Both the position numbers and the translations under genes were made by a program. The notes under the pieces are model-generated. The model had not been told where the DNA came from, made no database searches, and worked only from the letters and a program-made list of their open reading frames with translations. A stretch of 64,000 nt of DNA from Streptomyces sp. MMBL 11-1 (lineage in GTDB: Bacteria > Actinomycetota > Actinomycetes > Streptomycetales > Streptomycetaceae). Positions 35,335 through 45,560 of this stretch are shown here, piece after piece; position 1 is the first letter of the stretch; each line of letters starts with the position of its first letter. The stretch covers positions 1,612,001 through 1,676,000 of the forward strand of contig NZ_CP117709.1 in NCBI RefSeq assembly GCF_028622875.1, given 5' to 3'.

Positions 35335-36066
35335 TCACCCGACGACGACGCCGAACAGGGTGCCGAGTCCGTACGTCAGGGCCGCCGCCGCACCACCCAG
35401 CGCGAGCTGGCGCAGCCCGCTGAACCACCAGCTGCGGGCGGTCACCCGGGCCACCACCGCACCACAGGCGAACAGGCCGATCAGCGCGAGGAGCACCGCG
35501 GGCCACAGGGCGCTCGCGCCGAGGAGGTAGGGCAGGACGGGCAGCAGGGCGCCCAGCGCGAACGCGCCGAACGAGGAGACGGCGGCCACGAGCGGCGAGG
35601 GCAGGTCGCCCGGGTCGATGCCGAGCTCCTCGCGGGCGTGGATCTCCAGCGCCTGTTCCGGGTCGCGCGACAGCTGCCGGGCGACCTCGCGGGCCAGCGG
35701 GGCGTCCACCCCGCGGGACTCGTAGAGGGCGGCCAGCTCGGCCATCTCGTCCTGGGGGTGCTTGACGAGCTCGCGGCGCTCGACGGCGAGCTCGGCCTCG
35801 ACCAGCTCGCGCTGCGAGGCGACGGAGGTGTACTCGCCCGCCGCCATGGAGAAGGCCCCGGCCGCGAGCCCCGCCAGGCCGGTGATCACGATGGTCTGCT
35901 GGGAGACCACGCCGCCGGCGACCCCGGTCATCAGGGCGAGGTTGGAGACCAGGCCGTCCATCGCGCCGAAGACGGCGGGGCGCAGCCAGCCGCCGTTCAC
36001 ATCCCGGTGGGTGTGGTTGTCCCGGTGTGCCTCGTGCAGGACGGCGTCGGTCTCGATGATGGCCAC
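35335..36066 (-). CDS. VIT1/CCC1-family transporter (ferrous iron or manganese)
   Basis: The 243-residue membrane protein has the family features: 'GGWLRPAVFGAMDGLVSNLALMTGVAGG' as the first transmembrane helix with its Asp, 'LAAGAFSMAAGEYTSVASQRE' with the conserved Met and Glu residues, a charged cytosolic helical region for metal binding (about 95-160, rich in Glu and Asp), and three further hydrophobic segments. Members export or sequester Fe2+ or Mn2+. The GTG at 36066 has GGAGAAG upstream. A perfect A/T-rich dyad, 60 bp upstream, resembles Fur/CatR-type operators. Confidence 0.9.
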   Translation of the reverse strand: MAIIETDAVLHEAHRDNHTHRDVNGGWLRPAVFGAMDGLVSNLALMTGVAGGVVSQQTIVITGLAGLAAGAFSMAAGEYTSVASQRELVEAELAVERRELVKHPQDEMAELAALYESRGVDAPLAREVARQLSRDPEQALEIHAREELGIDPGDLPSPLVAAVSSFGAFALGALLPVLPYLLGASALWPAVLLALIGLFACGAVVARVTARSWWFSGLRQLALGGAAAALTYGLGTLFGVVVG

Positions 36067-36125
36067 GGCGTGCTTCTCCCCTTCGCTCCGGCGGGCCGTC
36101 ACCCCGCCGTTCCCCGTTGAATACA

Positions 36126-36139
36126 ACTTTCGACAAAGT
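36126..36139. promoter_or_regulatory. A/T-rich inverted repeat upstream of the VIT gene, possible Fur-family site
   Basis: ACTTT (36126-36130), CGAC, AAAGT (36135-36139) is a perfect dyad inside TTTGGACTTTGTCGAAAGTTGTA on the minus strand, 60 bp before the start codon and unusually A/T-rich here. Fur-family sites in Streptomyces often have this look, and an iron or manganese transporter is a fitting target. This is inference. Confidence 0.4.
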
Positions 36140-36324
36140 CCAAACTACGCCGTCCGAGCGACCCCCGCCAGCAAGGCAGGCCTGGCTTACCACCGCTCTG
36201 ACCTGCGAAGAAAGGCCAGCCTCAGCTATCCGGGCCGTCATCCGCCTGGCCCCTTTCCCGGCGTTTCCCGCCTCTCCTCGCCCGCCGCGTGGCACAGATG
36301 CGAACAGGGCCCAGCCTCGGGATC
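36140..36324. other. Intergenic segment between VIT operator and hexamer tract
   Basis: Together with the dyad and the hexamer tract this makes up the 410-bp gap between the divergent VIT and ARH genes. Its left half is A/T-richer and would suit promoters in both directions. No frame with coding bias was seen. Confidence 0.35.
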
Positions 36325-36440
36325 GGATGCGGACGCGTCGCGGATGCGGATGCGGATGCGTCGCGGACGTGTTGCGGACGCGGACGCGGATGCGTACGCA
36401 GATGCGCTGCGGAAGCGGATGCGTATGCGGACCCGGACTC
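36325..36440. repeat. Degenerate hexamer tract (GCGGAT/GCGGAC)
   Basis: About 20 copies of the hexamer GCGGAY, with interspersed GTCGCGGAC, run without interruption up to about 40 bp before the first ARH gene. The read-through frames give monotonous Asp-Ala or Arg-Met/Arg-Thr strings, so it is a simple-sequence tract and not a gene. It forms the 5' region of the seven-gene operon. Confidence 0.75.
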
Positions 36441-36477
36441 GGACTCGGACTCCCCGGACGAGCGGAAGGGCGACGCG

Positions 36478-37734
36478 ATGAACACGGCCGTCGGCAATGA
36501 CCGGGCCAGGGGTGCGCTGCTGGGACTGGCCGTCGGGGACGCGCTCGGCGCCCCGGCGGAGAACCTGCGGCCCTCCGAGATCCGCCGCCGCTGGGGGCGG
36601 ATCGAGGGGTTCGTGAGCGACGACCCGGCGGGCACCGACGACACGGAGTACGCCATCTTCTCCGGACTGCTGCTGGCCCGGCACGGCTCGGCGCTCGACG
36701 TCTCCCATGTGGAGCGGGCCTGGCACCACTGGATCGCCGATCTGGACGAGGGCCCGTTCCGGGGGGCCGGGTTCAGCGAGCGCGGCACGCTGGAGAACCT
36801 GCGCCGGGGCCTGGCGGCCCCCATCTCGGCCCAGCACCGGCACGCCTGGAGCGACGGGCTCGCGATGCGGGCGGCCCCCTTCGGGGTCTTCGCGGCGGGC
36901 CGCCCCGCCGAGGCGGCCCGGCTGGTCGCGGTGGACGGCCGGGTCAGCCACGAGGGCGAGGGGATCTACGGGGGCCAGGCGGTGGCGGCCGGGGTGGCGG
37001 CGGCCATGGTCGGCGCGGGCCTCGCCTCGGTGATCGCGGCCGCGCTCTCGGTGGTCCCGATGGACTCCTGGACGGCCCGGTCGCTGCGCCGGGCGGTGGC
37101 GGCGGCCCAGCGGCCCCACCCCGACCGGCTCACGATGGAGCGGGCGGTGCGCTCGGCGGTGGTGATCGCCGGCTACCCGTGGACGGACCTCGCGCCGGAG
37201 GCGGTGGGCCTGGCGTTCGGGGCGTTCACGGCGGCGCGCGGGGACTTCCGGACGGCGGTGCTCACGGCCGTCAACATGGGCCGCGACGCGGACACGACGG
37301 CGGCGGTGGCGGGCGCCCTGGCCGGGGCGCTGAACGGGGAGAGCGCCATCCCGCCGGACTGGGCGGGCGCGATCGGCCCGGTCCGGGGCAGTTGCCTGCC
37401 GTCGATGCGCGGCTACCACGTGCTGGACATCGCGGAACTGCTGACCCCGGAGGACCCGGCCGGGGCCGGACCGGCCGGCACCCCGCAGGAACGGGTCGCC
37501 CACGGCCGGGACCCTTCGACCGGGGCCGACCCGGCGTCGGTGGCGGCCCCCTGCGAGCCGGTACGGGACCCGGCGCCGGTGGCAGCCTCCCCCGGGTCAG
37601 CACGGGACCTGGCGACGGCGGCCCCCTCCGTACCCGTACGCGACCTGGCGACGGCGGCAGCCTCCCCCGCACCCGTACGCGACCCGGCGACGGCGGCAGC
37701 CTCCCCCGCACCCGTACGGGAGGACCGGCGATGA
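36478..37734 (+). CDS. ADP-ribosylglycohydrolase-family protein, first of four (ARH1), with repeat tail
   Basis: The 418-residue protein has the ARH helical fold with a complete di-magnesium site: 'LLGLAVGDALGAP' (residues 14-26), 'AGTDDTEYAIF' (near 60) and 'NMGRDADTTAAVAGALAGAL' (near 267). Members remove ADP-ribose or ribosyl groups from proteins or small molecules. After residue 350 a tail of five 12-13-residue repeats (D-x-A-x-x-A-A...P-V-R) follows, encoded at 37528-37719. The ATG at 36478 has GGAAGG upstream. It is the first gene of an operon of seven overlapping genes; the stop overlaps the next start by 4 bases. Confidence 0.92.
   Translation: MNTAVGNDRARGALLGLAVGDALGAPAENLRPSEIRRRWGRIEGFVSDDPAGTDDTEYAIFSGLLLARHGSALDVSHVERAWHHWIADLDEGPFRGAGFSERGTLENLRRGLAAPISAQHRHAWSDGLAMRAAPFGVFAAGRPAEAARLVAVDGRVSHEGEGIYGGQAVAAGVAAAMVGAGLASVIAAALSVVPMDSWTARSLRRAVAAAQRPHPDRLTMERAVRSAVVIAGYPWTDLAPEAVGLAFGAFTAARGDFRTAVLTAVNMGRDADTTAAVAGALAGALNGESAIPPDWAGAIGPVRGSCLPSMRGYHVLDIAELLTPEDPAGAGPAGTPQERVAHGRDPSTGADPASVAAPCEPVRDPAPVAASPGSARDLATAAPSVPVRDLATAAASPAPVRDPATAAASPAPVREDRR
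37528..37719 (+). repeat. Five in-frame tandem repeats of 36-39 bp at the end of ARH1
   Basis: Units of 39, 39, 36, 39 and 39 bp encode DPASVAAPCEPVR, DPAPVAASPGSAR, DLATAAPSVPVR, DLATAAASPAPVR and DPATAAASPAPVR. The last two units are nearly identical in DNA, which suggests recent slippage or duplication. Confidence 0.9.
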
Positions 37735-39074
37735 CGACGTCGGGCGGGCGGGCGACCGGAGGGGGACCAGCCGTGACCACACCCCGTGGAGGGCTCGCGG
37801 GCGGCCCGGCGGAGACGGGACGCGACGCGGCCGGACCGGCGGTCGCCCCCGGGGGCCCCGCCCCCTCCCGCCGCGCCCGGATCGAGGGGCTGCTGCTCGG
37901 GCTCGCGGCGGGCGACGCCGCCGGGTGGCCCGCCGCCCGGCACCGGGCCGCCCGGATGCCCGAGTGGACCCGGCGGCTCACCCGGGAGCTGGACACCTTC
38001 GCCGAGCAGAACGCCACCACCACACTCCCGGTGCCCATCGCCCTCAACCAGCCGCCCGAGCCGCTGCGGCTCGGCCCGTCCGACGACGCCGAGTGGGCCG
38101 CGTTCGCCGCCCGTACGGTGCTGGCCGCGGCGGCCGACGACGCGGTGGGGCTCCCCTCCGGCCGCCGGATGCGGGACGCCGTCGACCGGGCCTGGAACGC
38201 ACTGGCCGCCACCGTCGCCGCCGCCAGCGCCCGGGCCCCCGAGGTCGAGGCGGCCGTGCTCCCGCTACGGGCCCGGATCTCGGTGCGGGCCGGGCTCGGC
38301 AACCTGGCCGCCGGACTGCGGCCCCCCGCCACCGGACACGACAACCCGCACTACTTCGACGACGCCGCCTGCGTGCGCGCCGCCGTGCTCGCCGTGGTCC
38401 ACCCGGGCGACCCGGAAGAGGCGGCGGCGCTCGCCGAGTTCGACGCCCGCTACACCCAGGACGGCGACGGGGTGCACGGGGCGCGGGCCATGGCCGCCGC
38501 GATCGCCGTGGCCCTGGCCGGGGCGGACGTCGACACCGTGGTGAACGCGGCCCTGGACCGGCTCCCCGAGGGCACCGAGATCGCCCGCAACGCCGCGCAC
38601 GCGGTCCGCCTGGCCCGGGAGTTCGCGGACGAGCCCGCCGGGGCGTTCGCCCTGGTCCCGGTGGTGGAACACCAGATCGTGGACCACGTCTACAGCTACG
38701 GGATCGCGGCGGCGGAGACCGTGCCGGTCGCGCTCGCCCTCACCACCGCGGCACGGGGCGAGATCGCCCAGGCGATCCCGGCCGCCGCCTGCCTGTCCCG
38801 GGTCGCGGACTCCGCACCCGCCCTGGCCGGGGCGCTGACCGGGGCGATCGGCTCGGTCACCGCCGTGCCGGCGGGCTGGCGCGAGGCGTGCCGGACGCTG
38901 GCGGGCTGTGCGCTGCCCCGGCTCGCGGGTACGGACCTGATCGAACTCGCCGGGCTGCTGGCAGCCACGGAACCGGCCACCCCGGGTGGACAATTCCGAC
39001 ATGACGCCCACAACGGCCACGGAAGCCGCCCTCGCGACACCGCGCCCCTCCCCCACCACGCCCCGACTCGATGA
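37731..39074 (+). CDS. ADP-ribosylglycohydrolase-family protein, second (ARH2), metal-site residues changed
   Basis: The 447-residue protein has a Gly/Pro-rich N-terminus of about 50 residues and then the ARH fold: 'LLLGLAAGDAAGWPAARH', 'GPSDDAEWAAFAART' where the other copies have DDT or DDD, and near the end 'CLSRVADSAPALAGALTG' where ARH1 has 'RDADTTAAVAGAL'. So the first Asp of the C-terminal DxD(T/S) is Val and the Thr of DDT is Ala. Metal binding and catalysis are therefore doubtful; it may be a regulatory or scaffold partner, or have a changed mechanism. The ATG at 37731 overlaps the ARH1 stop (ATGA) and has GGGAGG. Confidence 0.88.
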   Translation: MTTSGGRATGGGPAVTTPRGGLAGGPAETGRDAAGPAVAPGGPAPSRRARIEGLLLGLAAGDAAGWPAARHRAARMPEWTRRLTRELDTFAEQNATTTLPVPIALNQPPEPLRLGPSDDAEWAAFAARTVLAAAADDAVGLPSGRRMRDAVDRAWNALAATVAAASARAPEVEAAVLPLRARISVRAGLGNLAAGLRPPATGHDNPHYFDDAACVRAAVLAVVHPGDPEEAAALAEFDARYTQDGDGVHGARAMAAAIAVALAGADVDTVVNAALDRLPEGTEIARNAAHAVRLAREFADEPAGAFALVPVVEHQIVDHVYSYGIAAAETVPVALALTTAARGEIAQAIPAAACLSRVADSAPALAGALTGAIGSVTAVPAGWREACRTLAGCALPRLAGTDLIELAGLLAATEPATPGGQFRHDAHNGHGSRPRDTAPLPHHAPTR

Positions 39075-40194
39075 ACGCGTCACCCGGGCCCTCGTCGGAG
39101 CCGCCGTCGGTGACGCCCTCGGCGGCCCGGTCGAGGGCTGGACCCCCGAGCAGATCGCCGAGCGCCACGGCGGCCGGGTGACCGGCATCGTCGGCCCCTG
39201 GCACGGCGCGGACTGGCGCACCGCGCGCCCCATCGCCCCGTACCACAAGGGCGACGGGCACGTCACCGACGACACCCTGATGACCCACGCCCTGATCCGG
39301 GTCTACGACCGGGTCCGCGACCACCTCGACGCGTACGCCGTCGCGGACCACCTCGTCCCGGATCTGCTGTCGCCCCGCTGGATCCCGGAGCTGGAGGCGG
39401 ACGCCCTCCCCCTCCAGCGGATCTTCCTGGCGGAGAAGTGGATCGTGGCCCGGCTGCACTACGGGCACATGGACCCGCGCGAGGCCGGTGCGGGGAACAT
39501 CGTCAACTGTGGTGCGGCGATGTACATGGCCCCGGTCGGCCTGGTCAACGCCGGCCACCCGGAGGCCGCGTACGCCGAGGCGCTGGAGGTCGCGGCGCCC
39601 CACCAGTCCTCCTACGGGCGGGAGGCCGCCGGGGTCTTCGCGGCCGCCGTCGCCGCCGCCTGCCGTCCGGGCGCCACCCCCGGCACCGTGGTCGACGCGG
39701 CCCTCTCCCTGGCCAAGGACGGCACCCGGTCGGCGATCGAGGCGGTCGCCGAAGTGGCGGTGCGCCACGAGGACTTCGAGTCCGCGCTCGTCCCGCTGCG
39801 GGCGGCCGTGGAGCCCTTCGACACGGTCGGCCCCGACTACCGGAGCCCCTCGCTCGGCGCACGCCGCCCCTCCCGGCTGCACGCGATCGAGGAACTGCCC
39901 ATCGCGCTCGGGATGCTGCTGGTCGGGGGCGGCGACTACCGGCGTACGGTGCTCGGTTCGGTGAACTACGGGCGGGACTGCGACTCCATCGCGACGATGA
40001 GTGGGGCGATCGTGGGCGCGCTGGGCGGCGAGGCCCCCGCGGGCTGGGCCGCCACGGTCGCGGAGGCGAGCCGACTGGACCTGGACGCCCCGGCGGGGGT
40101 GCTGGCGCAGGTGGCCCGGGAGGTGTTCGCCCGGGACCTGGAGCGCCGCCGGGCCCATGAGCAGGCGTTCGGCGCGCTGGCCGGTGCGCGGTGA
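39001..40194 (+). CDS. ADP-ribosylglycohydrolase-family protein, third (ARH3)
   Basis: The 397-residue protein carries an intact ARH site: 'LVGAAVGDALGGPVEGW' (residues about 36-52), 'GHVTDDTLMTHALIRV' (near 90), and 'SVNYGRDCDSIATMSGAIVGAL' (near 320). The middle part ('EAGAGNIVNCGAAMYMAPVGLVNAG') is typical of the large bacterial COG1397 group. The ATG at 39001 puts its first 74 bases inside the end of ARH2 in another frame, the longest overlap in the operon; GTG 38986 would lengthen it by five residues. The substrate is unknown. Confidence 0.92.
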   Translation: MTPTTATEAALATPRPSPTTPRLDERVTRALVGAAVGDALGGPVEGWTPEQIAERHGGRVTGIVGPWHGADWRTARPIAPYHKGDGHVTDDTLMTHALIRVYDRVRDHLDAYAVADHLVPDLLSPRWIPELEADALPLQRIFLAEKWIVARLHYGHMDPREAGAGNIVNCGAAMYMAPVGLVNAGHPEAAYAEALEVAAPHQSSYGREAAGVFAAAVAAACRPGATPGTVVDAALSLAKDGTRSAIEAVAEVAVRHEDFESALVPLRAAVEPFDTVGPDYRSPSLGARRPSRLHAIEELPIALGMLLVGGGDYRRTVLGSVNYGRDCDSIATMSGAIVGALGGEAPAGWAATVAEASRLDLDAPAGVLAQVAREVFARDLERRRAHEQAFGALAGAR

Positions 40195-41558
40195 ACGTCC
40201 GCCTCACCTGGGTGCAGCCCGAGGACCTGGTCGGTCACGAGCTGCGGCAGGCCGTGCAGGACGGCCGGGACGCCCGGGAGATCGAGGAGCGGTGGTACGC
40301 GGCCGGGGGCGCCCCCGGCCCGGTCCGGGCGGGTGCCTCCGAGCCGCCCGCACCGCCCCGCCTGCGTGCGCTGGCAGAGCGGCTCCTCGACGAACTCGCG
40401 ATGCTCGACGCGCCGTTGGAGGCCGAAGAGCCGACCGGGCTGGACGCGATCGTGGCCGCGTGCCCGCACTGGCCGGGCCCGGTGGACAGCGCGCCCGCCG
40501 TCGGCCGGGACCGGCTGCACGCGGCGTGGCTCGGCCGGGCGGCGGGCTGCCTGCTCGGCAAACCGGTCGAGAAGCTGCCGCTGGAGGGCATCCGCGCCCT
40601 GGGCCGCGCCACCGGCGACTGGCCCCCGACCATCTGGTTCACCGCACGCGGGGTCCCCGGCGAACTGTTGGCCGCGTACCCCTGGAACCGCCGCTCGGCC
40701 CCCACGTCGCTGGCCGAGAACATCGACGGCATGCCGGAGGACGACGACCTCAACTACCCCCTTCTCACGCTGCTGTTGCTCCAGCGGCACGGCCGCTCCT
40801 TCACCACCGGCGACCTGGCCCGGCTGTGGCTGGAGGAACTCCCGGCGGGCCGTACGTTCACCGCCGAGCGCATCGCGTACGGCAACCTCTTGGCGGGCGT
40901 CGAGCCGCCGGAGACCGCCCGCCGCCGCAACCCGTTCCGGGAGTGGATCGGCGCGCAGATCCGGGCCGACGTGCACGGCTGGACCCACCCCGGCGACCCG
41001 GCCGGGGCCGCCGCCCAGGCCCACCGCGACGCGGTCCTCACCCACACCGGCAACGGGGTGTACGGCGCGATGTTCACCGCCGCCGCGCTCGCCGTCGCGG
41101 CCGGCGGCGAGAGCGATGTGCACGGCTGCCTGGCCGCCGGGCTGCGGGTGGTGCCGCCGCATTCGCGGTACGCGCGCGCGATCCGCCTCGGCATCGGGGC
41201 GGCCCGTACGGAAGGGGACTTCGACGCCGTCGTCGACCGGCTGCACGCCGCCTACGCGGACACCCACCACTGGGTGCACGTCCTGCCCAACGCCGCGCTG
41301 CTGGCCGCCGCCCTCACCCACGCCGACGGCGCCTTCACCCGGTCGATCGGTCTCGCGGTCTCCGGCGGCTGGGACACCGACTCCAACGGGGCGACCGCCG
41401 GATCGCTGGCCGGACTCCTGGCGGGCGGGCCGGACGCCCTGCCCGAGCACTGGACGGCTCCGCTGAAGAACCGGCTCGCCACCTCCGTACCCGGCTTCGA
41501 CCGGACCGGGTTCGACACCCTCGCCGCACTGACCCACCAGGAGGCTCTGCGCCCATGA
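40191..41558 (+). CDS. ADP-ribosylglycohydrolase-family protein, fourth (ARH4), with N-terminal extension
   Basis: The 455-residue protein begins with an extension of about 110 residues ('VRLTWVQPEDLVGHELRQAVQDGRD...IEERWYAAGG'), then the ARH fold with variant motifs: 'WLGRAAGCLLGKPVEKLP' (Asp of GDALG replaced by Cys), 'GMPEDDDLNYPLLTLLLLQ', and 'AVSGGWDTDSNGATAGSLAGLL'. This GCLLGKPVE/DDD form is a recognisable ARH subgroup, so it is probably active but on another substrate. The GTG at 40191 overlaps the ARH3 stop (GTGA), and its stop overlaps the ribokinase start (ATGA). Confidence 0.9.
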   Translation: MNVRLTWVQPEDLVGHELRQAVQDGRDAREIEERWYAAGGAPGPVRAGASEPPAPPRLRALAERLLDELAMLDAPLEAEEPTGLDAIVAACPHWPGPVDSAPAVGRDRLHAAWLGRAAGCLLGKPVEKLPLEGIRALGRATGDWPPTIWFTARGVPGELLAAYPWNRRSAPTSLAENIDGMPEDDDLNYPLLTLLLLQRHGRSFTTGDLARLWLEELPAGRTFTAERIAYGNLLAGVEPPETARRRNPFREWIGAQIRADVHGWTHPGDPAGAAAQAHRDAVLTHTGNGVYGAMFTAAALAVAAGGESDVHGCLAAGLRVVPPHSRYARAIRLGIGAARTEGDFDAVVDRLHAAYADTHHWVHVLPNAALLAAALTHADGAFTRSIGLAVSGGWDTDSNGATAGSLAGLLAGGPDALPEHWTAPLKNRLATSVPGFDRTGFDTLAALTHQEALRP

Positions 41559-42439
41559 CCCGCATCGCCGTGCTCGGCAGCACCAACATGGACCTCGTCG
41601 CCCACACCGCCCGCGCCCCCGGACGCGGAGAGACCGTCACCGGACGGGAGTTCCGGACGGTCCCCGGCGGGAAGGGCGCCAACCAGGCCGTCGCCGCCGC
41701 CCGCGCGGGCGGGGATGTGACGATGATCGGCGCGGTCGGCGACGACGCCTACGGGGCGCGATTGCGTGACGGCCTCGAACACGCGGGGGTGGACACCGAC
41801 CTCCTGCACACCGCCGAGGGCCCCAGCGGCACCGCGCACATCGTGGTCGACGACACCGGGTCCAACGCGATCGTGGTGGTCCCCGGCGCGAACGGCGTCG
41901 TCACCGCGCTGGGGCCCGGGGAGATCGCGGCGATCGCCGCGGCCGATCTGCTGCTCACGCAGCTCGAACTCCCCCTGTCCGCCGTCGTCGAGGGCGCCCG
42001 AGCGGCCCGGGCCCAGGGCGTACGGACCATCCTCACCCCCTCCCCTGTGCAGCCCCTGCCCGATGAACTCCTCGATTGCATCGACCTGTTGGTGCCCAAC
42101 GAGCACGAGGCGGCCGAGCTGTCCGGGCAGGCCGAACCGCACGCCGCCGCCCAGATCCTGCTGCGCCGGGTGCCCGAGGTCATCGTCACGCTCGGCGCGA
42201 AAGGCTGCCTGTACGCGGCCCGGGGCGGCGAACCGGTGCTCTTCGAGGCCCCCTCGGTGACCGCCGTCGACACGACCGGCGCCGGGGACACCTTCGTCGG
42301 GGCGCTGGCCGTGGCGCTCGGCGAGGGACGACCGGTGGCCGAGGCCGTGGCGTTCGCGTCCTCGGCCGCCGCGCTCTGCGTCCGGAAGCCCGGCGCGTCC
42401 ACGTCCATGCCCTACCGCAGCGAGATCGAGGCCTCATGA
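41555..42439 (+). CDS. rbsK: Ribokinase (PfkB family)
   Basis: The 294-residue sugar kinase should phosphorylate ribose at O5 with ATP. It shows 'GSTNMDLVAHTARAPGRGET', the PfkB-1 motif 'FRTVPGGKGANQAVAAARAGG', and the C-terminal motif 'AVDTTGAGDTFVGALAVAL' with the catalytic Asp in GAGD. Its length is normal for RbsK. No ribose ABC transporter is nearby; instead it follows four ARH genes, which suggests that its substrate is ribose, or a ribose derivative, released inside the cell. The ATG at 41555 has GGAGG about 11 bases upstream. Confidence 0.93.
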   Translation: MTRIAVLGSTNMDLVAHTARAPGRGETVTGREFRTVPGGKGANQAVAAARAGGDVTMIGAVGDDAYGARLRDGLEHAGVDTDLLHTAEGPSGTAHIVVDDTGSNAIVVVPGANGVVTALGPGEIAAIAAADLLLTQLELPLSAVVEGARAARAQGVRTILTPSPVQPLPDELLDCIDLLVPNEHEAAELSGQAEPHAAAQILLRRVPEVIVTLGAKGCLYAARGGEPVLFEAPSVTAVDTTGAGDTFVGALAVALGEGRPVAEAVAFASSAAALCVRKPGASTSMPYRSEIEAS

Positions 42440-43635
42440 GCACCACCGCGGCTGGACCCCTGACCGGGCTGCGCGTCATCGATCTGGCCACCCTCTTCGC
42501 CGGACCGCTGGCGGCCACCATGCTCGGGGACTTCGGCGCCGATGTGATCAAGGTCGAGCACCCCCGCAGGCCGGACCCCTCGCGCGGGCACGGGCCCGCC
42601 AAGGACGGGGTCGGCCTGTGGTGGAAGCTGCTCGGCCGCAACAAGCGCACCCTGACCCTCGACCTGTCCGCGCCCGGCGGCCGGGACGTGCTGCTGGAGC
42701 TGGCCGCCGGGACGGATGTGATCATCGAGAACTTCCGGCCCGGCACCCTGGAGCGCTGGGGCCTGGGCCCCGAGGAGCTGCACGCCGTCAACCCGCGTCT
42801 CGTGCTGGCCCGGGTCACCGGCTTCGGCCAGTTCGGACCGTACGCCCACCGCCCCGGCTTCGGGACGCTCGCCGAGGCGATGAGCGGCTTCGCGGCGATC
42901 ACCGGGGAGCCGGACGGGCCGCCGACCCTGCCGCCGTTCGGGCTGGCCGACTCCATCGCGGCGCTGGCCACGGCGTACGCGGTGATGGCCGCCCTCGCGG
43001 GACGGGAGAAGACCGGCGAGGGCCAGGTGGTGGACCTGGCGATCATCGAGCCGATCCTCACCGTGCTGGGCCCGCAGCCGCTCTGGTACGACCAGCTCGG
43101 CCACGTCCAGCCGCGCACCGGCAACCGCTCCCGCAACAACGCCCCGCGCAACACCTACCGCACCGCCGACGGGCACTGGGTCGCGGTCTCCACCTCCGCC
43201 CAGTCCGTCGCGGAGCGGGTGATGCGTCTGGTCGGCCGCCCGGACCTGATCGAGGAGCCCTGGTTCGGCACGGGCACCACCCGGGCCGAGCACACCGAGG
43301 AGCTGGACGGGGCGGTCGGGCACTGGATCTCCCGCCACAGCCGCGAGGAGGTCCTCGACCGCTTCGAGAAGGCGGAGGCGGCCGTCGCGCCGGTCCACGA
43401 CGTACGGGAGGTGATGGAGGACCCGCAGTACCGGGCGCTGGGGACCATCGCCGAGGTCGACGACCCGGAGCTGGGGCCGCTGCGGATGCAGAACGTCCTC
43501 TTCCGGCTCTCCCGGACCCCAGGGGGGATCCGGTGGGCGGGCCGCCCGCACGGCGCGGACACCGAGGAAATCCTGGCAGGGCTCGGCCTCCCGGAGTCGC
43601 GGATCGCGGCGCTGCGGGACCAGGGGGCGCTGTGA
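42436..43635 (+). CDS. Family III CoA-transferase (CaiB/BaiF type)
   Basis: The 399-residue protein moves CoA between carboxylic acids. It has the Rossmann opening 'GLRVIDLATLFAGPLAATMLGDFGADVIKVEHP', 'NKRTLTLDLSAPGGRDVLLEL', 'IIENFRPGTLERWGLG', and 'LPPFGLADSIAALATAYAVMAAL' with the catalytic Asp. The C-terminal domain ends 'ILAGLGLPESRIAALRDQGAL', as usual. The specific acids cannot be read; relatives act on succinyl-CoA with dicarboxylates, formyl-CoA with oxalate, or carnitine. It is coupled to the ribokinase by ATGA and to the CitE-like gene by GTGA. Confidence 0.93.
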   Translation: MSTTAAGPLTGLRVIDLATLFAGPLAATMLGDFGADVIKVEHPRRPDPSRGHGPAKDGVGLWWKLLGRNKRTLTLDLSAPGGRDVLLELAAGTDVIIENFRPGTLERWGLGPEELHAVNPRLVLARVTGFGQFGPYAHRPGFGTLAEAMSGFAAITGEPDGPPTLPPFGLADSIAALATAYAVMAALAGREKTGEGQVVDLAIIEPILTVLGPQPLWYDQLGHVQPRTGNRSRNNAPRNTYRTADGHWVAVSTSAQSVAERVMRLVGRPDLIEEPWFGTGTTRAEHTEELDGAVGHWISRHSREEVLDRFEKAEAAVAPVHDVREVMEDPQYRALGTIAEVDDPELGPLRMQNVLFRLSRTPGGIRWAGRPHGADTEEILAGLGLPESRIAALRDQGAL

Positions 43636-44498
43636 CCGGCCGGCCGATCCCGGCCCCGCCGCTGCCGGAGGGCCCGCCGCCGCCCGTCGGGCGGCCACCG
43701 CTGACCTGGCTGTACGTGCCCGGGGACCGGCCGGAGGTGGTGGCCAAGGCGCTGGGCTGCGGGGCGGACGTGGTGATCGTCGACCTGGAGGACGCCGTCG
43801 CCCCGGACCGTAAGGGATACGCGCGCTCCGCCACCGCCGAGCTCCTCGGCGACCAGGTCACGGCGGCCCCGGACGCGGTGCCGGTCCATGTGCGGGTGCA
43901 CGGCGAGGACGACATCCGGGCGCTGGCGGCGCTGCCGGGCCTGTCCGCGTTCCGGCTGCCGAAGATCACCCACGCGGTCTCGGTGTCCCATGTGGCGGCC
44001 GTGGCGCCCGGCGTGGCGCTGTATCCGCTGCTGGAGTCGGCGCTCGCGATCGAGCACGCGTACTCGATCGCCTCGGCCCATCACGCCGTGCACGGCATCG
44101 CCCTGGGCGAGGCGGACCTGCGGGCGGATCTGGGCGTACGGGAGGACACCGGGCTCGACTGGCCGCGCAGCCGCGTCGTGGTGGCGGCACGCGCGGCGGC
44201 CCTTCCGCCACCCGCCCAGTCGGTGTTCCCGGACGTCCGGGACCTGGACGGGCTGTGGGCCTCGTGCGGGCGGGGGCGGGCGCTCGGGATGCTGGGCCGG
44301 GCGGCGATCCACCCGCGCCAGCTGCCGGTGATCGAGCGGGCGTTCCGGCCGACCGCCGAGGAGATCGAGGCGGCCGAGGAGATCGTCGCGGCCTCGGCGG
44401 TGGAGGCGGGGGCGCTGGCGCTGCCGGACGGGAGGTTCGTGGACGCGGCGGTGGTGGCGTCCGCCCGCCGGACGATCGCGCTCGCCGGGCGGGCCTGA
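43632..44498 (+). CDS. HpcH/HpaI-CitE family acyl-CoA lyase
   Basis: The 288-residue TIM-barrel protein resembles CitE and malyl/citramalyl-CoA lyases: 'WLYVPGDRPEVVAKALGCGADVVIVDLEDAVAPDRKGYAR' (Arg and the first acidic cluster), 'LYPLLESALAIEHAYSIA' with the metal-binding Glu, 'GIALGEADLRADLG' with the Asp, and 'GRAAIHPRQLPVIERAF' near the end. Its pairing with a CoA-transferase suggests that a hydroxy-dicarboxylate is first made into a CoA thioester and then split. The last gene of the operon; its stop codon sits in the loop of a perfect terminator hairpin. Confidence 0.9.
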   Translation: MTGRPIPAPPLPEGPPPPVGRPPLTWLYVPGDRPEVVAKALGCGADVVIVDLEDAVAPDRKGYARSATAELLGDQVTAAPDAVPVHVRVHGEDDIRALAALPGLSAFRLPKITHAVSVSHVAAVAPGVALYPLLESALAIEHAYSIASAHHAVHGIALGEADLRADLGVREDTGLDWPRSRVVVAARAAALPPPAQSVFPDVRDLDGLWASCGRGRALGMLGRAAIHPRQLPVIERAFRPTAEEIEAAEEIVAASAVEAGALALPDGRFVDAAVVASARRTIALAGRA

Positions 44499-44564: not shown

Positions 44565-45560
44565 TCAGCTCTTCTCGGCGGCTTCGGGGCTCTCGGCGGT
44601 GGCGCCCTTGCCGGACTGGCCCGGCTCGCCCTTCGTGAGCGGGTCCTTCTCGGCGGCGTCCGCCTTCGCGGAGCCGTCCTCGTCGGAGCCGTCCTCGTCG
44701 GCGGGGCCGTCGTTCTTCGCGGGGGCGGCGTTCGTGGGGGCGTCGTCCCGTTCGGGCTCGACGATCTCCTCGCGGCCCGGACGGACCTTGGCGGAGATCA
44801 CGATGTAGGCGACGGCGAGGACGAAGACGATGATCGCGGTCCACACGTTCAGGCGGAGGCCGAGGACGTGGTGGGCCTCGTCGACCCGCATGTACTCGAT
44901 CCAGCCGCGCCCCGCGCAGTAGGCGGCGACGTACAGCGCGAACGCCCGTCCGTGGCCGAGCCGGAAGCGCCGGTCGGCCCAGATGACCAGGAGCGCGACG
45001 CCGATGCACCACAGCGACTCGTACAGGAAGGTCGGGTGGTAGGTCCCGGCGACCCGGTTCGGGCCCTCGCTGATCTCCAGCGCCCAGGGGAGGTCGGTGG
45101 GCTTGCCGTACAGCTCCTGGTTGAACCAGTTGCCCCAGCGGCCGATGGCCTGGGCGATGGCGATCCCCGGGGCCAGCGCGTCGGCCCAGGCGGGCAGGGG
45201 GATGCCCCGGCGGCGGCAGGCGATCCAGGCGCCGACGGCGCCGAACGCGATGGCGCCCCAGATACCGAGGCCGCCCTCCCAGATCTTGAAGGCGTCGACC
45301 CAGTTCTCACCGTCGCTGAAGTACAGCTGGTAGTCGGTGATCACGTGGTAGAGCCGGCCGCCGACGAGGCCGAAGGGCACCGCCCAGACGGCGACGTCGG
45401 CCACGGTGCCGGCTCTGCCGCCCCGGGCTACCCAGCGCTTGTTGCCGAACCAGACGGCGACGAAGACACCGATGATGATGCAGAACGCGTAGCCGCGGAG
45501 CGGGATCGGGCCGAGCTCGATCACGCCGGTCGACGGGCTGGGGATGAAGGCAAGATTCAT
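44565..45560 (-). CDS. lgt: Prolipoprotein diacylglyceryl transferase
   Basis: The 331-residue membrane enzyme adds diacylglycerol to the lipobox Cys of lipoproteins. It has seven hydrophobic segments, the Lgt signature 'GRWGNWFNQELYG' (about 142-154), 'GGLGIWGAIAFGAVGAW' before it, and 'LFALYVAAYCAGRGWIEYMRVDEAH'-like C-terminal residues with the conserved Arg and Glu. A 65-residue hydrophilic tail rich in Asp, Glu, Ala and Lys extends the C-terminus, as in other Streptomyces. The ATG at 45560 starts 'MNLAFIPSPSTGVIELG'. Confidence 0.97.
   Translation of the reverse strand: MNLAFIPSPSTGVIELGPIPLRGYAFCIIIGVFVAVWFGNKRWVARGGRAGTVADVAVWAVPFGLVGGRLYHVITDYQLYFSDGENWVDAFKIWEGGLGIWGAIAFGAVGAWIACRRRGIPLPAWADALAPGIAIAQAIGRWGNWFNQELYGKPTDLPWALEISEGPNRVAGTYHPTFLYESLWCIGVALLVIWADRRFRLGHGRAFALYVAAYCAGRGWIEYMRVDEAHHVLGLRLNVWTAIIVFVLAVAYIVISAKVRPGREEIVEPERDDAPTNAAPAKNDGPADEDGSDEDGSAKADAAEKDPLTKGEPGQSGKGATAESPEAAEKS

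Follow-up and report, generated by a model that had tools for sequence, protein, structure and literature searches.

An actinobacterial operon joining four ADP-ribosylglycohydrolase family proteins to CoA-ester cleavage genes: a candidate catabolic route for an imported glycoside

Why are four members of the ADP-ribosylglycohydrolase (ARH) family encoded together with a ribokinase, a family III CoA-transferase and a CitE-like lyase? The question is raised by a 64,000-nt stretch of the Streptomyces sp. MMBL 11-1 genome (contig NZ_CP117709.1, positions 1,612,001 to 1,676,000; hereafter, the window), in which seven plus-strand reading frames, ARH1, ARH2, ARH3, ARH4, RbsK (ribokinase), CoAT (CoA-transferase) and the CitE-like lyase, fill positions 36478–44498 in this order. 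A previous reading, made from the letters alone (the sequence-only reading), described an operon of genes overlapping end to end, and both this layout and the family names it proposed are borne out: all frames are present on the same strand, their Pfam domains agree with the names, and five of the six junctions are 4-nt overlaps of the ATGA/GTGA type. ARH2 and ARH3 overlap by 89 nt, provided that ARH3 starts at the GTG at 38986; the starts of both are uncertain because conservation sets in only near residue 50 of ARH2 and residue 28 of ARH3. Genome comparison firmly indicates that the set is one functional unit conserved across many actinobacteria, and operon linkage and uptake are well supported. 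On balance, we lean towards a catabolic operon for an imported glycoside, the likeliest substrate being a hydroxy-dicarboxylic acid conjugated to a ribosyl (or similar furanosyl) group.

Conservation and linkage of the gene set

The 394 genomes compared within the class include 62 with ARH3 (E ≤ 1e-50) and 94 with CoAT (E ≤ 1e-130). All 62 ARH3-encoding genomes carry CoAT, compared with 32 of the 332 genomes that lack ARH3 (Fisher p = 8e-49, a value that is only indicative because the genomes are related), and in 58 of the 62 the two genes lie within 5.2 kb of each other, whereas in the other four they are located on different contigs. Thus, the neighborhood comparison proposed in the sequence-only reading shows the genes traveling as a unit rather than scattered among relatives. 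Within the genus, 29 of 40 listed genomes encode both proteins, nine encode neither, one (G423) encodes a CoAT with no adjoining ARH gene, and one (G602, an assembly of 820 contigs) encodes CoAT without ARH3. A search with the ARH3 of Nonomuraea as query yielded at least 80 named loci, the best among the matches listed.

The ARH3 loci collected for comparison number 105 and represent 101 distinct ones (L024–L026 derive from one genome, that of the source strain, whereas L168 repeats L082 and L111 repeats L085); gene order in the flanks was compared for loci from L027 onward. Named loci with the same surroundings as the source operon, gltB and a VIT-family gene on one side and lgt, dsbA and trpB on the other, belong to Streptomyces, one of them being labeled [Kitasatospora] papulosa. 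Wherever the stretches are long enough, the order ARH1-2-3-4 is constant in Streptomycetaceae, Streptosporangiaceae, Thermomonosporaceae, Pseudonocardiaceae, Jiangellaceae and genera that we take to be of the Nocardiopsis type (L059, L060 and L077). L069 carries a lone ARH3, the full cluster being present elsewhere in the same genome (L144). ARH3 is also kept in shortened and shuffled versions of the operon, which read CoAT-CitE-LacI-perm1-perm2-SBP-ARH3-ARH4-ARH1-ARH2 in L158, LacI-perm1-perm2-SBP-ARH3-ARH1-ARH2-CoAT-CitE in L150 (genome of 1.3 Mb, 45% GC in the stretch) and LacI-perm1-perm2-SBP-ARH3-ARH4-FGE gene-CoAT-CitE in L153 (1.8 Mb, 47% GC in the stretch), where perm and SBP denote the permeases and the binding protein of an ABC importer. 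The CitE proteins of L150 and L153 are 29% and 32% identical to that of the source operon, respectively. Chance grouping and synteny drag were considered as explanations of the linkage and ruled out by the shuffled orders and by the clusters located away from gltB–lgt.

In a CoAT tree built from 73 of 107 distinct sequences, with Streptomyces thinned, ARH-linked copies occupy two places: a main group, which also contains two copies scored as unlinked (L141, at a contig start, and L160), and the L150+L153 pair (100/94), which falls among unlinked copies belonging to other clusters (96/90). The linkage label requires four changes on this tree, at least three of them forced by well-supported branches, compared with 24.9 in shuffles, and the two placements are best read as the signature of a probable second recruitment. 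No relative was detected on viral contigs with CoAT patterns. In several lineages (L066, L082, L144, L151, L153 and L167), a further operon gene encodes an amylase-type TIM barrel fused to an FGE/SUMF1-like domain, a fusion that in a protein search has many relatives in Micromonospora and Jiangella.

Uptake and regulation

At 59 of the 105 ARH3 loci, the operon includes genes for a LacI-type regulator and an ABC importer; many of the others are incomplete stretches or belong to an importer-less Streptomyces type. The domains were checked in L050 (LacI, BPD_transp_1 and SBP_bac_1), and importers with SBP_bac_1 binding proteins presumably take up sugars or glycosides. Of the 32 loci flanked by both VIT and lgt, 27 lack LacI and the importer, which are still present there (~4.5 kb) in L070, L076, L091, L094 and L099. 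One or two palindromes resembling CTGTAAACGTTTACAG are located upstream of LacI and represent predicted operators. When 3.08 Mb of collected loci were scanned for sites with a CG center and at most three mismatches to this sequence, 89 were found, 88 of them at −55 to +138 nt from the start of the LacI match, compared with none in one mononucleotide shuffle. Predicted operators accompany 53 of the 59 LacI-bearing ARH3 loci; those without one are L004 (Agrobacterium), L063, L066, L082 (Jiangellaceae), L168 (a duplicate of L082) and L167, grouped with L066 in the CoAT tree.

The source genome has followed a different course. Neither the window nor the surroundings of the relocated importer described below yielded an operator, nor did a relaxed pattern over the whole genome, and the best LacI match there is only 38% identical; repressor and operator have therefore been lost together in this lineage. 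Nevertheless, a permease-permease-binding-protein set homologous to the operon importer is encoded ~5 Mb away (C1:6.73 Mb), its perm1 being 74–77% identical to permeases encoded within the operon at five other Streptomyces loci and its binding protein 63% identical to the L076 counterpart. This relocated importer (L131, G000:C1:6726000-6745900) is directly followed by an unusual neighbor, a gene that by eye resembles MGT-type (macrolide) glycosyltransferases. An unlinked gene for the importer binding protein (59–64%) was also detected in 13 of 20 Streptomyces with an importer-less cluster and in none of three Streptomyces without the cluster.

These data bear directly on the statement of the sequence-only reading that no transporter or regulator is included and that the substrate may therefore be internal. 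The first part is accurate for the window and does not extend to the operon family, given the 59 loci with LacI and importer genes. The second, that an internal metabolite is dismantled without uptake, could draw on the importer-less source locus, on the 27 similarly depleted VIT/lgt-flanked loci and on the seven of the 20 genomes that yield no importer match at 1e-60; we nonetheless regard it as extremely unlikely, because importers are operon-linked at the majority of ARH3 loci and an unlinked homolog tracks with the importer-less cluster in Streptomyces, the source strain included.

Enzymes and candidate substrate

All four ARH proteins match PF03747 well above the cut-off (114–208 bits vs 26.2), the ARH fold being shown for ARH4 only. 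Orthologs were aligned at identity cut-offs of 43% (ARH1), 33% (ARH2), 54% (ARH3), 52% (ARH4), 55% (RbsK), 65% (CoAT) and 48% (CitE). In rows that for the ARHs include repeats of the source genome, two duplicate loci and ~20 Nonomuraea, the paired motifs T/E-D-D and D-x-D-T/S, which we take to be metal ligands, are nearly invariant in ARH1 (88 rows), ARH3 (103) and ARH4 (98). ARH1 displays TDD and GRDADT, the latter kept in all 88 rows with letters, as well as a conserved WSDGLAMR; ARH3 is characterized by HKGDGHxTDDTLMT, NCGAAMY and GRDxDS, and ARH4 by PEDDDLN and GGWDTDS together with a conserved N-terminal extension of ~100 residues. ARH2 keeps SDD and lacks the first Asp of D-x-D: in the 80 rows with a letter at the corresponding column, placed by motif, Asp never occurs (V 47, L 26, I 2, A 2, T 2, K 1).

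In family membership, in the fold of ARH4 and in the paired motifs of ARH1, ARH3 and ARH4, these proteins resemble the DraG/ARH1/ARH3 hydrolases, and they could accordingly be thought to reverse ADP-ribosylation of proteins or nucleic acids, with the kinase, CoAT and lyase as metabolic hitch-hikers. PMC5087735 lists SCO2028–SCO2030, and PMC9411070 SCO2028–SCO2031, among uncharacterized DraG/ARH homologs; going by gene order, these would be ARH1–ARH4. However, identity to the known hydrolases is low, the best protein, ARH1, misses the NCBIfam cut-offs of both DraG (75 vs 337) and Tri1 (53 vs 490), and the GNGAAMR stretch of DraG is replaced by the family-conserved SDGLAMR, NCGAAMY and WIGAxIR. 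Furthermore, according to PMC13036486, neither SCO2028 nor SCO2030 hydrolyzed U-alpha-ADPr, the one substrate concerned, and the context is one of sugar uptake, with tight linkage to a LacI-controlled importer and to CoA-dependent cleavage of an acid. We thus find reversal of ADP-ribosylation very unlikely. ARH3 is the constant member, around which ARH1/2 and ARH4 are combined in a modular way, a pattern suggestive of alternative types of linkage or anomer, or else of consecutive steps. An additional ARH4-like gene (46%) occurs in three same-genus genomes (L013, L014 and L015) near a gene that by eye resembles glycerate-type kinases, and a Sir2-family gene is found close to it in L013 (Pfam) and L014 (by eye).

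The sequence-only reading expected the ribokinase to trap ribose. The enzyme assignment stands, since RbsK passes the NCBIfam ribokinase model TIGR02152 (312.7 vs a cut-off of 299.65), missing the narrower PRK11142 (261 vs 341), and 16 of the 17 structures of relatives matched at E ≤ 1e-25 bear the same name. The remaining six operon proteins fall short of every NCBIfam cut-off. The identity of the sugar is weakened by the absence of RbsK from 14 of the 32 loci flanked by both VIT and lgt; it was not seen in the L150, L153 and L158 stretches either, although all eight checked genomes whose ARH locus lacks RbsK contain another ribokinase. The kinase being dispensable, ribose as the sugar rests mainly on the ARH fold. 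Accordingly, the ARHs might cleave a different glycoside, carrying another furanose or an N-glycosidic bond, with ribokinase as an optional lineage-specific addition, which would also sit well with the amylase-type TIM barrel partner of some lineages. This appears unlikely to us, given that the source kinase clears the ribokinase cut-off and that in several families the gene sits within the operon.

For the last two enzymes, Asp172 of CoAT, presumably the catalytic residue, is conserved in 92 of 92 rows, and Arg88, Glu135, Asp162 and Asp271 of the CitE-like lyase in 77 of 77. The nearest solved relatives of the lyase are named "acyl-CoA lyase beta chain", and it misses the RipC/Ccl equivalog cut-off (137 vs 375). 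Relatives of the CoAT-CitE pair adjoin genes of dicarboxylate metabolism, including TRAP DctM (L142 and L145), an SLC13 permease with PrpF, and MmgE/PrpD. Another conceivable role of the gene set is salvage of a modified or unusual nucleoside, in which the ARHs would act as nucleoside hydrolases, RbsK would take the ribose, and CoAT-CitE would deal with an acid that the base carries or gives rise to. This idea gains from CoAT relatives that adjoin dihydroorotase-like or amidohydrolase genes and from a PF03747 gene next to a BMP-family ABC set in Rhizobium. It is set back by the SBP_bac_1 type of the importer binding protein, which we associate with sugars and glycosides, by the lack of a ring-opening enzyme among the source operon genes (Pfam), and by the DctM gene beside the unlinked pairs of L142 and L145. 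In its favor, too, the ARH of Escherichia coli YegU is paired with a sugar kinase and a symporter predicted to carry nucleosides (PMC10819704). On balance, nucleoside salvage comes out as rather unlikely.

In L113, L118, L120, L152, L155 and L176, a gene of the cyclase family, recognized by PF04199 in the first two and by eye or annotation in the other four, recurs in a cluster with a CoA-transferase, mostly together with MmgE/PrpD, a CitE-like lyase or a dihydroorotase-like amidohydrolase; we know of no pathway for this combination.

The ribosylated-acid chemistry outlined in the sequence-only reading, that is, release of a ribosyl group, its capture by ribokinase and processing of the acid by CoAT and CitE, is consistent with what the domain and active-site checks showed and is still the best reading, a ribose-like sugar joined to an organic acid being the substrate that we infer. 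In relatives, a LacI repressor would sense the compound and control the operon from the CTGTAAACGTTTACAG-type operators, often paired, a control lost in the source genome. The sugar-type ABC importer, operon-linked in relatives and with an unlinked homologous set in the source genome, would bring the compound in. ARH3, together with ARH1/ARH2 and/or ARH4, which would act as alternatives or in succession, would then cleave the glycosidic bond at a two-metal site, and a ribokinase, encoded at the locus or elsewhere, would phosphorylate the ribose. Judging by its family and conserved position, CoAT would form the CoA ester of the acid, which the CitE-like lyase could split into an acyl-CoA and a 2-oxo acid, for example, pyruvate or glyoxylate. 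Because Pfam detects no hydratase among the seven genes, the acid probably carries its hydroxyl group from the outset, as malate and citramalate do.

A more specific form of this reading, which we put forward tentatively as a serious possibility, is an undescribed route for a widespread compound in which a malate- or citramalate-like acid carries a furanosyl group in O- or N-linkage. LacI and CTGTAAACGTTTACAG would act as the switch for its uptake, and ARH-fold glycosidases and CoA-dependent retro-Claisen cleavage would degrade it. ARH2, without a full metal site, would then be a partner or regulatory subunit of ARH1.

Several observations weigh against the catabolic reading. ARH2 is short of one metal ligand, RbsK is absent from the 14 flanked loci, and seven importer-less genomes yield no importer. 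CoAT is also present in 32 of the 332 genomes devoid of ARH3, and its two placements in the tree could also reflect one old linkage followed by several losses. No operator was found beside the unlinked CoAT-CitE pairs or RbsK genes (L138–L149), including the Nonomuraea and Nocardiopsis-type pairs, which gives no sign of a shared LacI regulon. Finally, rhizobial and Pseudochrobactrum stretches contain LacI, ABC and ARH3-like genes without CoAT-CitE; the rhizobial sets suggest that ARH3 and the importer form the core, with acid disposal as an add-on.

Relation to described systems and features of the locus

The sequence-only reading knew of no described pathway with this gene set, and our searches concur: the open-access literature (PMC) yielded no published account of the operon or gene set, and no paper joining ARH with CoA transferase, ribokinase and Streptomyces, with citrate lyase and CoA transferase, or with glycoside and substrate-binding protein. 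ARH with ribokinase and ABC transporter pointed to one paper, on the iron response of Bacteroidetes, and the other papers listed, judged by title and the opening of the abstract, described no such pathway. Plasmid-borne operons of Agrobacterium and other rhizobia, Deinococcus and Mycolicibacterium likewise combine LacI, a sugar-type ABC importer and an ARH, with a ribokinase in those of Agrobacterium, Deinococcus and Mycolicibacterium; unlike the source operon, they lack CoAT-CitE in the stretches compared, and the ARH protein of Deinococcus and some rhizobia has 690–700 residues. We know of no description of their function. Relatives of the source operon display the features of a LacI-controlled ABC carbohydrate operon; the source locus does not, its genome also being devoid of LacI and operator.

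In E. coli yegTUV, with its repressor YegW/GgaR, an ARH-family gene similarly adjoins a sugar kinase, a transporter and a dedicated repressor, but there are only three genes, with one ARH, a major facilitator superfamily (MFS) transporter and a GntR regulator, and no CoA-transferase or lyase; PMC10819704 gives the functions of these genes as unknown. The itaconate/methylsuccinate cluster (Ict, Ich and Ccl, with Mcd and MmgE/PrpD) shares the use of a CoA-transferase and an (S)-citramalyl-CoA lyase to degrade C5-dicarboxylates, and the same source also refers to another lyase, whose partner is a CoA-transferase with an unknown role (PMC12290011). The source operon differs in having no hydratase, dehydrogenase or MmgE, in a lyase far below the RipC cut-off, and in the added ARHs and kinase. 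No itaconyl-CoA hydratase gene was found beside CoAT and the lyase among the seven source genes; the extra genes of relatives are partly annotated.

The source genome (8.5 Mb) contains eight PF03747 matches, four of them in the operon. The abundance of ADP-ribosylhydrolases and scarcity of transferases in Streptomyces have been interpreted as a sign of lively ADP-ribosylation metabolism (PMC5087735). If the four operon proteins are catabolic glycosidases, this view has to be revised, and a metabolic role is added to those of the ARH fold; should the tentative undescribed route exist, half of the DraG/ARH "ADP-ribosylhydrolases" of Streptomyces would be such glycosidases. Given an operon family with its own importer and sensor and a probable role in riboside-acid breakdown, four presumed ADP-ribosylation erasers may be food-processing enzymes. 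The operon also points to an unrecognized compound used by relatives of Streptomyces as well as by actinobacteria whose genomes measure only 1.3 to 1.8 Mb, and the binding protein and the LacI operator offer two direct handles for finding it.

Table 1 Features of the operon and its immediate surroundings in the window
Feature	Positions	Strand	Remarks
VIT-family flank, outside the operon	35335..36126	−	PF01988 234 bits; marks the Streptomyces location
Upstream gap, ~350 bp, with GGATGC-type repeats	36127..36477	none	LacI/importer site in other Streptomyces
ARH1, ADP-ribosylglycohydrolase family	36478..37734	+	PF03747 208 bits
ARH2, ARH-family protein	37731..39074	+	PF03747 114 bits; true start may be downstream of 37731
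ARH3, ARH family	38986..40194	+	PF03747 174 bits; start uncertain
ARH4, ARH-fold enzyme	40191..41558	+	PF03747 161 bits
RbsK, ribokinase	41555..42439	+	PfkB 240 bits; TIGR02152 312.7
CoAT, family III CoA-transferase	42436..43635	+	PF02515 (CoA_transf_3) 416 bits
CitE-like CoA-ester lyase	43632..44498	+	PF03328 (HpcH_HpaI) 88 bits
lgt flank, outside the operon	44565..45560	−	PF01790 221 bits

The operon is bounded upstream by the VIT-family gene and gltB on the minus strand, and downstream by lgt, a DsbA/thioredoxin-type gene and trpB (Pfam), with trpA, named by eye, in between. Consensus scans for promoters and terminators gave no match. Directly 5′ of ARH1, where other Streptomyces have LacI and the ABC genes, lies an array of GGATGC/GCGGAC-type repeats (36320–36438). 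In addition, a 39-bp tandem repeat at 37527–37718 encodes a repetitive tail at the C terminus of ARH1; relatives show no conservation of this tail.

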